NCBI GenBank assembly: GCA_026692865.1
Contig: JAPLNI010000025.1
Coordinates: 62,001-126,000 of the forward strand
Length of the DNA: 64,000 nucleotides
Direction of reading: 5' to 3'
Source: Planctomycetota bacterium
GTDB lineage: Bacteria > Planctomycetota > Planctomycetia > Pirellulales > Pirellulaceae
Shown: one piece after another, positions 9,574 through 12,442 of the stretch
Numbering within the stretch: position 1 is the first letter of the stretch
How the letters are laid out: each line of letters starts with the position of its first letter
Made by a program: the position numbers and the translations under genes
The notes under the pieces: model-generated
The model's database searches: none
What the model was told of the DNA's origin: nothing
What the model saw: only the letters and a program-made list of their open reading frames with translations

Positions 9574-10884
9574 CTACCGCTTCGCTGGATAGCTAAACTT
9601 TCTAATTGAATCGGGAAACATAGTAATACTGGTGCCACTGCACATGGGAACTTGGTAGCGACCATTTTTGACAACACACGGGTCGACAAAATGTTCATGC
9701 AAGTGGTCAACATACTCCGTTATTCGCCCTTCTAAAGATCCGCTGACACAAATATAGTCAAAAATCGATTCGTGTTGAACGTACTCGCATAAACCAACAC
9801 CGCCAGCATGCGGACATATCGGGATCCCGAACTTTGCAGCCAGCAAAAGAACCGCGACAACTTCGTTGACACCGCCGAGCCGGCAAGAATCTATTTGGCA
9901 GTACCGAATGGATTTGGCCTGCAAAAGCTGCTTAAACATTACCCTATTGTGACAATGTTCGCCGGTAGCAACACCGATCCCTAAAGGTTCCATCGCCCGA
10001 GCAATCGCGGCGTGGCCCAGAATATCATCAGGCGACGTTGGCTCTTCGATCCACATGGGTTTGCAAAAGGCAAGCGATTTCATCCAATCAATCGCATCAC
10101 CAACGTCCCACCGTTGATTGGCGTCAACCATCATGGTGCGATCGCCGCCGATTTCGTCTCTCATGATTTTCGCGCGACGAATGTCATCTTGCAGGTCTGC
10201 TCCAACCTTCATTTTGAAGTGGGTGAATCCTTCGCCTATGGCCTCACGACACAGCCTTCGAATCTTCTCGTCCGAGTATCCAAGCCAGCCAGCCGACGTC
10301 GTATAAGCGGGGTAACCATCACGGAGCATCTCCCGTTCACGATCTTGTCGCGTCGGCACCAAACGCTCAAGCATTTCCTGAGCATCGCTTGGCATCAAAG
10401 CATCAGTCAGGTACCTCCAATCAACCATCTCGACAATTTGGGCAGGCGTCAGATCTGACAACAGTTTCCAGAGCGGCTTCTTCTCTAGCTTGGCCCAAAG
10501 GTCCCAAAGAGCATTCACAATCGCGGCCGTCGCAAGGTGAATGACTCCTTTTTCAGGACCGATCCAGCGCAGTTGCGAGTCTCCCGTAAGGTGCTTCCAG
10601 AAAGCGCCCGGAGCCGATGCGAATTCGTCAATCGAGTGACCAATCACCAGCGGTCGCAGTGCATTGATCGCAGCCACCACGATCTCGTTTCCACGACCTA
10701 TCGTAAAAGTCAAACCATGCCCTTCGACACCGTCTCCACGATCCGTTTCAAGAACGACATAGGCAGCCGAATAATCGGGGTCTGGATTCATCGCATCCGA
10801 ACCATCAAGCGAATCGGACGTTGGAAAACGGACATCGAATATCTGTAAGCCGATGATGTTGCCGGAGATCATTTTGAATGTCAT
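9574..10884 (-). CDS. L-fuconate dehydratase-like enolase-superfamily enzyme
   Basis: A 436-residue mandelate racemase-subgroup enolase-superfamily enzyme that most resembles L-fuconate dehydratase, which removes water from L-fuconate in the non-phosphorylating fucose pathway. Catalytic features are visible: the KxK motif at 224-226 (HFKMKVG), metal ligands Asp254 (VDANQRWD), Glu280 (WIEEPTSPDD) and Glu309 (TGEHCHNR), and the general-acid His359 in CPHAGGVGLCEYVQH. N-terminal capping domain residues (IFDVRFPTSDSLDGSDAMNPDPDYSAAYV) are typical of FucD. It lies 37 nt after the DUF21 gene. Related sugar-acid dehydratases cannot be excluded without substrate data. Confidence 0.88.
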   Translation of the reverse strand: MTFKMISGNIIGLQIFDVRFPTSDSLDGSDAMNPDPDYSAAYVVLETDRGDGVEGHGLTFTIGRGNEIVVAAINALRPLVIGHSIDEFASAPGAFWKHLTGDSQLRWIGPEKGVIHLATAAIVNALWDLWAKLEKKPLWKLLSDLTPAQIVEMVDWRYLTDALMPSDAQEMLERLVPTRQDREREMLRDGYPAYTTSAGWLGYSDEKIRRLCREAIGEGFTHFKMKVGADLQDDIRRAKIMRDEIGGDRTMMVDANQRWDVGDAIDWMKSLAFCKPMWIEEPTSPDDILGHAAIARAMEPLGIGVATGEHCHNRVMFKQLLQAKSIRYCQIDSCRLGGVNEVVAVLLLAAKFGIPICPHAGGVGLCEYVQHESIFDYICVSGSLEGRITEYVDHLHEHFVDPCVVKNGRYQVPMCSGTSITMFPDSIRKFSYPAKR

Positions 10885-10921: not shown

Positions 10922-12442
10922 TTAGTCCAAACTAGCTTGCTCGCCGGTAAGAAGAATTTCTAATACTTCCGAGGCAGACTCTGCAGTCTTAAGTCGCGTC
11001 GCAATAAAATCACTTTCATCCATGATTGTCGCGATGATCGCTTGGAGACGTTGATGCACACGAGGCTGCCCAGCGGGTGTGAGAAGCACCGTCAACAAGT
11101 GGGCTCGCTCCTGGGTTCCCCGATAAGCAATTCCTTTTTCCGAGCGAATCACAAAAACGACTGGCTTCGAGAGTCCTGCGATCCGAGCGTGTGGCATTCC
11201 TAATCCACCGCCCAGATAGGTCTCTACAATCCGCTCGCGTTCATCGATCGCGCGTGCAATTTGCTGCTTGGGAACAGGTAACGATTCTGGTCGCATTCGA
11301 TCCAACGCAATACGAATCGCTTCTGTGGTATTGGACGCTTCTACATCCAATTGAATGCGGTCTTCCGTCAATGCATCCGACAGGAGTATCTGCTCTTCGT
11401 CTTCGAACTCATCGCGAATCGTACCGATGATTTCTTCGATAACATCCTCAAGCGTCAGAAATCCAACCCAATTACCAGACAGGTCGCGAACAAGTGCTGC
11501 GTGGATCCGCTTCTTCTGCATGTCCGAAAGAAGAGATTCTAAAAGCGTGTTCTCAGTCGTCGTAATAAATGGGCGTTTGATCGGGCCTAAGTCGACTTGA
11601 TCGCTTGCAGAAAACAATGTGTCCTTCAAATGAATTATCCCAATCGGTTCGTTCGGGTCCGCGTCGATTAAAGGATATCGGCTAAACCGGTATCGACGCA
11701 TCATCTCTAGGTTTTCATCCCAACTTTCTCGAATACTCAGGCATCTCACTTGGGAGCGCGGCCGCATCGCATCTTTCACCTTGAGCTCGCCAAGATCAAA
11801 AACGTTCTCAAGAAACAACAGCCTTCTAAACGACATCATCCCCTCTGATTGGCCTTGGCTGAGGAGAATACGCAGTTCGTCTTCGCTGTGCCGATCGTGA
11901 TGATCGTTCACACCTAACCCGACAAGACTCAGCAGTGCGTTGGCTGAAGCATTTAAGGCTTTGAGGGGAATATAAAACAAAAACCAAAAAAACCGGAGCG
12001 GACCTGCTGTCCATAGCGACGCTTCGTCTGTCATGCGAATCGATACGGACTTGGGTATCAACTCGCCGAATAAAATATGGAGGAAACTGACCAGCAAGTA
12101 ACTGATCGTAAAGGCGACACCGTGGAGCGAGAACCATGCCGCCACTCCGTGCTCCGGAAACAATCCTGTCCAAGATAGCAACGGTTCGATCAATTGAACA
12201 ATTGCTGGTTCCGCAACGAATCCTAGCCCAATCGAAGCGAATGTGATTCCGAGTTGGCAAACCGAGAGGTACTCGTCCAAGTTTTCTTGAACGATCTCAA
12301 CGGCACGTGCGCCGGAGACTTTGTTGTCAAGCATCTCCTCGATACGAGACGGACGCATTTTGACCGCAGCGAACTCGGCAAGTACGAAAAAACCATTGAG
12401 CAACAGCAACAGAATTGCGATGAGAAGAAAAACAATCGTCAT
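10922..12442 (-). CDS. DUF21/CNNM-type membrane protein with CBS pair and C-terminal PTS EIIA-2 domain
   Basis: A 506-residue fusion. Residues 1-190 are a DUF21 (CNNM/CorC) membrane domain with three to four hydrophobic helices and the signature ELIPKSVSIR. Residues about 200-345 form a tandem CBS pair (MRPRSQVRCL..., ...FLTLEDVIEEIIGTIRDEFEDEE), as in HlyC/CorC transport proteins. Instead of the usual CorC_HlyC domain, the last 145 residues resemble a fructose-type PTS EIIA domain: ARAIDERERIVETYLGGGLGMPHARI, with the phospho-acceptor histidine position at His418, then HLLTVLLTPAGQPRVHQRLQAI. CNNM/CorC proteins are implicated in Mg2+ or cation transport; the EIIA domain suggests phosphorylation-dependent control. 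It is followed 37 nt later by fuconate dehydratase. Confidence 0.88.
   Translation of the reverse strand: MTIVFLLIAILLLLLNGFFVLAEFAAVKMRPSRIEEMLDNKVSGARAVEIVQENLDEYLSVCQLGITFASIGLGFVAEPAIVQLIEPLLSWTGLFPEHGVAAWFSLHGVAFTISYLLVSFLHILFGELIPKSVSIRMTDEASLWTAGPLRFFWFLFYIPLKALNASANALLSLVGLGVNDHHDRHSEDELRILLSQGQSEGMMSFRRLLFLENVFDLGELKVKDAMRPRSQVRCLSIRESWDENLEMMRRYRFSRYPLIDADPNEPIGIIHLKDTLFSASDQVDLGPIKRPFITTTENTLLESLLSDMQKKRIHAALVRDLSGNWVGFLTLEDVIEEIIGTIRDEFEDEEQILLSDALTEDRIQLDVEASNTTEAIRIALDRMRPESLPVPKQQIARAIDERERIVETYLGGGLGMPHARIAGLSKPVVFVIRSEKGIAYRGTQERAHLLTVLLTPAGQPRVHQRLQAIIATIMDESDFIATRLKTAESASEVLEILLTGEQASLD

Follow-up and report, generated by a model that had tools for sequence, protein, structure and literature searches.

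The bacterial CNNM transporters commonly end in a CorC_HlyC domain, to which, as far as we know, no function has been firmly assigned. Proteins that combine DUF21 and CBS domains, as these do, are known to transport ions or polyamines. The core of the CNNM family is described as DUF21 plus CBS, with another C-terminal domain in the eukaryotic members (PMC8242095). The same paper reports an ATP-binding role for residue R235 of MtCorB, and also that HDX of the CBS2 motif is altered when CorC is deleted, which was read as identifying the site where CorC docks (PMC8242095). For E. coli it is reported that PtsN in its unphosphorylated form attaches to the C-terminal region of YcgO and inhibits transport, an interaction that phosphorylation weakens; the CorC domain of YcgO is given as the likely PtsN site, an assignment made by prediction and accompanied by the authors' own caution (PMC11808508). 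In LacS, HPr is reported to control the transporter through a fused EIIA (PMC10710835).

Here we describe a gene that combines parts of these systems, found in a window of 64,000 nucleotides from a planctomycete of the family Pirellulaceae (assembly GCA_026692865.1, contig JAPLNI010000025.1, positions 62,001 to 126,000). It encodes a CNNM-CBS-CBS-EIIA fusion protein of 506 amino acids, as defined by the open reading frame, its translation, Pfam matches and an AlphaFold2 model. The gene runs on the minus strand, from an ATG start at 12442 to a stop codon that ends at 10922, and the plus strand of the same interval is riddled with stops. An earlier note on this DNA had given the span 10922 to 12442, which is correct, and was silent on the strand.

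The protein begins with a CNNM (DUF21) transmembrane domain at residues 7–203 (11834 to 12424, minus strand), matched by PF01595 at 155.3 bits against a cut-off of 28.4. There follows a CBS pair, or Bateman module, at residues about 222–342 (11417 to 11779, minus strand), which is recognized by PF00571 in two stretches, the best being residues 222–274, as well as by phmmer alignment to 7m1t and by the fold of 7msu. The C-terminal part, residues 352–504 (10931 to 11389, minus strand), is a PtsN-like EIIA-2 domain by profile and by fold, with PTS_EIIA_2 (PF00359) matching residues 358–497 at 69.8 bits (E 3e-19) against a cut-off of 27. The profile search thus agrees with the earlier note, which had described a DUF21-CBS protein ending in EIIA-2. 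The same note held that EIIA stands in place of CorC_HlyC, and this is what we find: PF03471 (CorC_HlyC) has no match in the window protein at E ≤ 0.1, whereas in the non-fused relative L052 it comes directly after the CBS pair. All the nearest non-fused relatives examined (L050–L054) have a CBS pair and then a CorC-type tail, L052 being the one among them that was scanned with PF03471.

Compared by phmmer with E. coli PtsN (1a6j), the EIIA part gives E 1.2e-9. His418, the His of the GGGLGMPHARI motif and correctly numbered in the earlier note, aligns with the PtsN active-site His, R402 with the preceding Arg, and H463 with the second His; we take these PtsN residues to be catalytic. The codon of His418, the predicted phospho-acceptor, lies at 11189 to 11191 on the minus strand. 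The domain shares with PtsN (EIIA-Ntr; 1a6j, 3urr) the fold, the phospho-His, the preceding Arg and the Pro-His motif, and differs from it in being fused to a transporter and in having, two residues beyond the His, an Arg where PtsN has Lys. The PtsN equivalog model TIGR01419 (NCBIfam) gives 47.4 bits, below its threshold of 138.7, and by sequence the domain is PtsN-like but not a PtsN.

AlphaFold2 was used to model the window protein, with 41 fusion sequences as input. The mean pLDDT is 86.6 and the pTM is 0.48, so the individual domains can be relied on, but the arrangement between them is not trustworthy. Residues 352–504 of the model superimpose on PtsN 3urr with Z 20.9 (rmsd 2.0 over 149 residues) and the EIIA part on PtsN 1a6j with Z 20.5; Foldseek also gives the PtsN fold for this part. 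Residues 1–180 match the transmembrane domain of CorC (7cff, Z 16.8) and residues 219–340 the CBS pair of CorB (7msu, Z 18.1). Given that the curated cut-off is passed, that the model has the PtsN fold, and that the same architecture is present in two phyla, the EIIA fusion goes beyond chance, and the observation of a CNNM-CBS-EIIA fusion is confirmed.

The spread over two phyla comes from a search for other DUF21-CBS-EIIA fusions, which the earlier note had proposed and which was positive. The Planctomycetota were searched with the window protein, a match to residue 495 or beyond being counted as full-length, and one-piece full-length fusions were found in at least 38 of 392 genomes. Two contig-cut fusions, G001 (cut beyond the His) and G129 (halves on two contigs), raise this to at least 40 genomes; in G210 the contig end cuts the fusion earlier than in G001. 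The fusion matches are the top of a score-ordered list, from which more diverged fusions could escape. The window's own family has the fusion in at least two of nine sampled genomes (G000, G353). In the Elusimicrobia, full-length fusions occur in 40 of the 198 genomes of the phylum, with one truncated (G437) and one frame-shifted (G574) in addition, and a scan of named genomes has two Elusimicrobia fusions (L077, L094) among the matches listed. Some genomes carry several fusion paralogues, with at least four in G279 (L039), two of which are in tandem on C128, and at least three in G187 (L036, L038). A plasmid collection contains 346 records that match the window protein, none of them over 80% of the query.

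On the CNNM side the sampled fusions have one origin. In a quick tree of the CNNM part, made with 93 of the available rows and about every second fusion, all 44 sampled fusions together with G574 form one group with SH-aLRT 100. The EIIA tree has 43 fusion rows on one side of a branch and 25 other EIIA domains on the other, with support 69; it leaves out L044 and the long rows L171 and L002, and keeps L075, which is a copy of L002. Because the support for this branch is weak, the argument for one origin rests on the CNNM side, and these sequences are most simply read as descending from a single old fusion. An EIIA tree that counted L204 as a non-fusion rejected one fusion clade (p-AU 0.003); this was discarded, L204 being half of a contig-cut fusion. 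Loss of EIIA in G574 (L253) was likewise considered and rejected, since the EIIA part continues directly downstream in another frame, which makes it a frameshift in the gene or in the assembly.

No CNNM-EIIA fusion is described in the titles and abstract openings of the open-licence PMC literature that was searched. PTS domain fusions are reportedly a subject of Barabote and Saier, and the architecture may well be recorded, without comment, in domain databases. The fusion is real, old and conserved, and is a new combination of known parts.

The earlier note had named conservation of His418 in relatives as a check on its reading, and the residue is kept in 87 of the 88 fusion sequences that reach this position. 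The main alignment has 85 rows (43 planctomycete and 42 Elusimicrobia, some genomes having more than one), and 84 of them reach position 418. Of these rows 83 have His there and one, G033, has Arg; P417 and R420 are present in 84/84, E403 in 83/84 and R402 in 82/84. The best-kept EIIA columns surround the phospho-His, compared with an average of 49% for the EIIA region (84 rows); the identity of the fusions to the window protein is 29–55%, with a median of 35%. Four sequences outside the alignment, namely the planctomycete fusions G244 and G046 (left out by the start-position filter and then checked separately), L094 and the G129 half, all have His418. The second active-site position is more variable, with Gln at 463 in 13 of 42 planctomycete rows and in all 40 Elusimicrobia rows, so some members of the family may handle phosphate by a different chemistry. 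G244 has His418 but has lost R402, R420 and H463.

These exceptions would fit an EIIA domain that is now structural or ligand-binding, is no longer phosphorylated, and merely stabilizes the CBS pair as CorC_HlyC may do: Gln replaces H463 in 53 of 82 rows, one fusion has Arg for His (G033), and one has lost two arginines (G244). We regard this as unlikely, because His418, R402, R420 and P417 are the most conserved positions across two phyla, which is unexpected for a merely structural domain.

The fusion in G033 (L044:2975-4588) is the only one with Arg at 418, and HPr is undetected in this genome while EI is present. Function may genuinely have been lost in this case, or the assembly may have a gap. 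The G033 genome is fragmented and 89% complete, and its class consists of two genomes in the sample. HPr was sought upstream of EI up to the contig end and was not found. Co-loss of His418 and HPr was considered for this genome and rejected, since EI is present and several other EIIA domains keep the His.

The window genome (99.4% complete) encodes one HPr (96 bits) and one EI (98.1 bits). The presence of both had been put forward in the earlier note as something to look for, as had an HPr close to the fusion, and here the outcome is different: the HPr is on another contig (contig 58), in a cluster in the order hpf-EIIA-HPr-EI-rng (L055:6761-9888). In this cluster the stand-alone EIIA, HPr and EI are confirmed by Pfam, and the hpf-like and rng-like labels are our reading of position and sequence. 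There was no match in the window genome to PTS_EIIC PF02378, the EIIC family that was searched, nor to Hpr_kinase_C. The HPr keeps KSILG, a Ser46-like site, despite the absent Hpr_kinase_C match. The EI of Planctomycetes has been placed in a regulatory group R; except for some Proteobacteria, the members of this group are described as having no PTS transporters (PMC2405797).

HPr is present in 39 (misses G033 and G210) and EI in 38 (misses G187, G201 and G210) of the 41 planctomycete genomes that have complete or contig-cut fusions among the matches listed, and HPr is present in both Elusimicrobia genomes tested. HPr is nearly universal, being found in 375 of the 392 genomes of the Planctomycetota sample, so this co-occurrence shows capability and not linkage, and it was dropped as evidence for linkage.

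The window genome has three EIIA_2 domains, namely the fusion, the stand-alone domain of the HPr and EI cluster, and that of an HTH-EIIA protein. The last is a 246-residue HTH_17-EIIA_2 protein (L075:7959-8699; G000:C26:260240-260662) that has LLHPRR replacing the usual Pro-His motif, and G033 encodes a similar HTH_17-EIIA protein (L169). All three domains would share one HPr, and the signal might run from the transporter to the PTS. The fused EIIA would then be a membrane-anchored phosphate acceptor, more or less accessible according to the ion or ATP state of the transporter, which would in this way adjust how far HPr and the other EIIA proteins are phosphorylated. The retention of the catalytic residues would suit this arrangement. 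We consider it quite improbable, however, since what the EIIA replaces, CorC_HlyC, is a domain of a transporter that is regulated, and the cases reported from E. coli (PMC11808508) and for LacS (PMC10710835) have the EIIA acting on the transporter.

The transporter half shares with the CNNM/CorB/CorC proteins (MtCorB 7m1t, CorC, PaeA, MpfA) the DUF21 domain, the pi-helix motif G-E-x-x-P-K and a CBS pair with the ATP-binding Arg. The pi-helix motif of CorB is G126-E127-x-x-P130-K131 in the window protein, and E127 is invariant in 85/85 aligned fusions. In the phmmer alignment to 7m1t, R255 falls on R235 of MtCorB, the residue that binds ATP, and it is kept in 45/45 fusion rows and 47/48 non-fusion rows. 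Besides having EIIA and no CorC_HlyC, the fusion differs from these proteins at the metal site: the Mg2+ ligands Ser21, Ser25, Ser71 and Glu111 of MtCorB correspond to N16, V20, I66 and E127, of which the Glu alone is kept. With three Ser ligands replaced by Asn16, Val20 and Ile66, Mg2+ is not assured as the substrate. The non-fused bacterial relatives, as a rule, also have V20 and I66. The PaeA model (NCBIfam) gives 108.6 bits with the window protein, far below its cut-off of 500; polyamine exporters such as PaeA are either within the branch of the window protein or next to it. We infer from the family that the substrate is a cation.

The positions most specific to the fusions (R207, L208, E212, D216 and E302) fall within the helical bundle or CBS2, with none in the membrane domain. 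At the strictest setting, 4/5 fusion-specific residues fall in the helical bundle between membrane domain and CBS pair, as against 5/13 in a Bacillota control clade. Because the control clade also has many there, this enrichment is treated as a lead only.

The gene that lies 37 nt downstream of the fusion, as claimed in the earlier note, is on the same strand and is an enolase-superfamily gene resembling sugar-acid dehydratases (9574 to 10884, minus strand). It has MR_MLE N and C domains (MR_MLE_C 199.5 bits), and its best NCBIfam model reaches 124.1 bits against a cut-off of 500. The close spacing and common strand would suit a functional unit of the fusion with this dehydratase and the neighbouring nagB, for import or export of sugar acids under catabolite control. 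The neighbours of 37 fusion loci were compared, with open reading frames taken on the wrong strand at a few, and the dehydratase matched no neighbour at the other 36, which removes a conserved operon with the dehydratase as a candidate. DUF21-CBS proteins are moreover known to transport ions or polyamines, with PaeA among the NCBIfam matches. We therefore think a sugar-acid system very improbable, and the dehydratase-like neighbour is probably outside the system of the fusion.

The only recurrent neighbour in this comparison is purL, at 7/37 loci in one planctomycete family (L037, L056–L060, L067), its purL-like identity being established on two representatives. No PTS genes were seen beside the compared fusions, a few of whose neighbours were scanned with Pfam, and scans for promoters and terminators gave no more than shuffled sequences. 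In three Staphylococcus records (L090, L097, L098) a CNNM gene is within a few kb of a gene that starts with EIIA, and the product of the latter, judged by its sequence, looks like a fructose PTS enzyme II.

The fusion can be compared with three other systems in which EIIA is tied to a transporter. LacS is a GPH sugar permease, and its EIIA has the EIIA-Glc fold and belongs to an unrelated EIIA family, whereas the fusion is a CNNM ion transporter with an EIIA of the mannitol/fructose/Ntr family. What the two have in common is an EIIA-like domain at the C-terminus of a transporter, which in the LacS of streptococci and lactobacilli is reported to be phosphorylated by HPr (PMC10710835). The likeness to YcgO and PtsN is that the control of a cation transporter is tied, at the place of CorC, to an EIIA of the same family (PMC11808508). 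YcgO, unlike the fusion, is described as a CPA1 K+/H+ antiporter whose CorC is bound by a separate PtsN (PMC11808508); in the fusion the EIIA is covalently attached and the CorC is absent.

The third comparison is with planctomycete fusions of EIIA to a Na+/H+ exchanger (L198, L207, L208, L199), which also have a C-terminal EIIA_2 on an ion transporter. They differ in having a Na_H_Exchanger membrane domain and no CBS pair, and their EIIA is outside the CNNM-fusion group (support 69). Such Na_H_Exchanger-EIIA_2 fusions were seen at L198:262-1950, L207:253-1947, L208:1396-3156, L199:889-3384 and L171:1495-3402; L199 has two EIIA stretches, and L171 has a universal stress protein domain between the exchanger and the EIIA. 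Several kinds of ion transporter in Planctomycetota seem to use EIIA as a plug-on module.

EIIA domains in other bacteria carry the phosphate signal of carbon and energy state. Judged from the sequence, the transporter described here is probably switched directly by the PTS phosphate signal, and the coupling of a cation-transport protein to PTS status that the earlier note had suggested is supported. We favour, with some confidence, the more specific reading that the transporter is gated by phosphorylation of His418 through EI and HPr, jointly with Mg-ATP bound to the CBS pair. Phosphate would pass from PEP to the single EI, then to HPr and then to His418, and the phosphorylation state of His418 would alter the docking of EIIA on the CBS pair (CBS2) and the helical bundle. 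The membrane domain would then move or not move, and the transporter open or close accordingly, with Mg-ATP bound at the CBS pair (R255) as a second input, of energy status. Such a transporter would read the PEP/pyruvate-linked state of the PTS in cis, much as YcgO of E. coli reads it in trans through PtsN. By analogy it may be the unphosphorylated EIIA that inhibits, but we can only guess at this direction.

That EIIA has naturally taken the place of CorC here, and that PtsN binds the CorC domain in E. coli, together suggest that the CorC tail is a meeting place of PTS state and ion transport. A wider proposal, which we put forward tentatively and consider rather doubtful, is that CorC_HlyC is a general docking site for EIIA of the PtsN type; the partner would have become fused in an ancestor and taken over the slot, giving the CNNM proteins of Planctomycetota and Elusimicrobiota that are gated by the phospho-His from HPr and by Mg-ATP. 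If true, these proteins would follow LacS as a second, and widespread, class of transporter in bacteria that is regulated through its own phosphorylation. They would give a clue to the role of CorC_HlyC everywhere it occurs, and would provide a target for the permease-less regulatory PTS of Planctomycetes.
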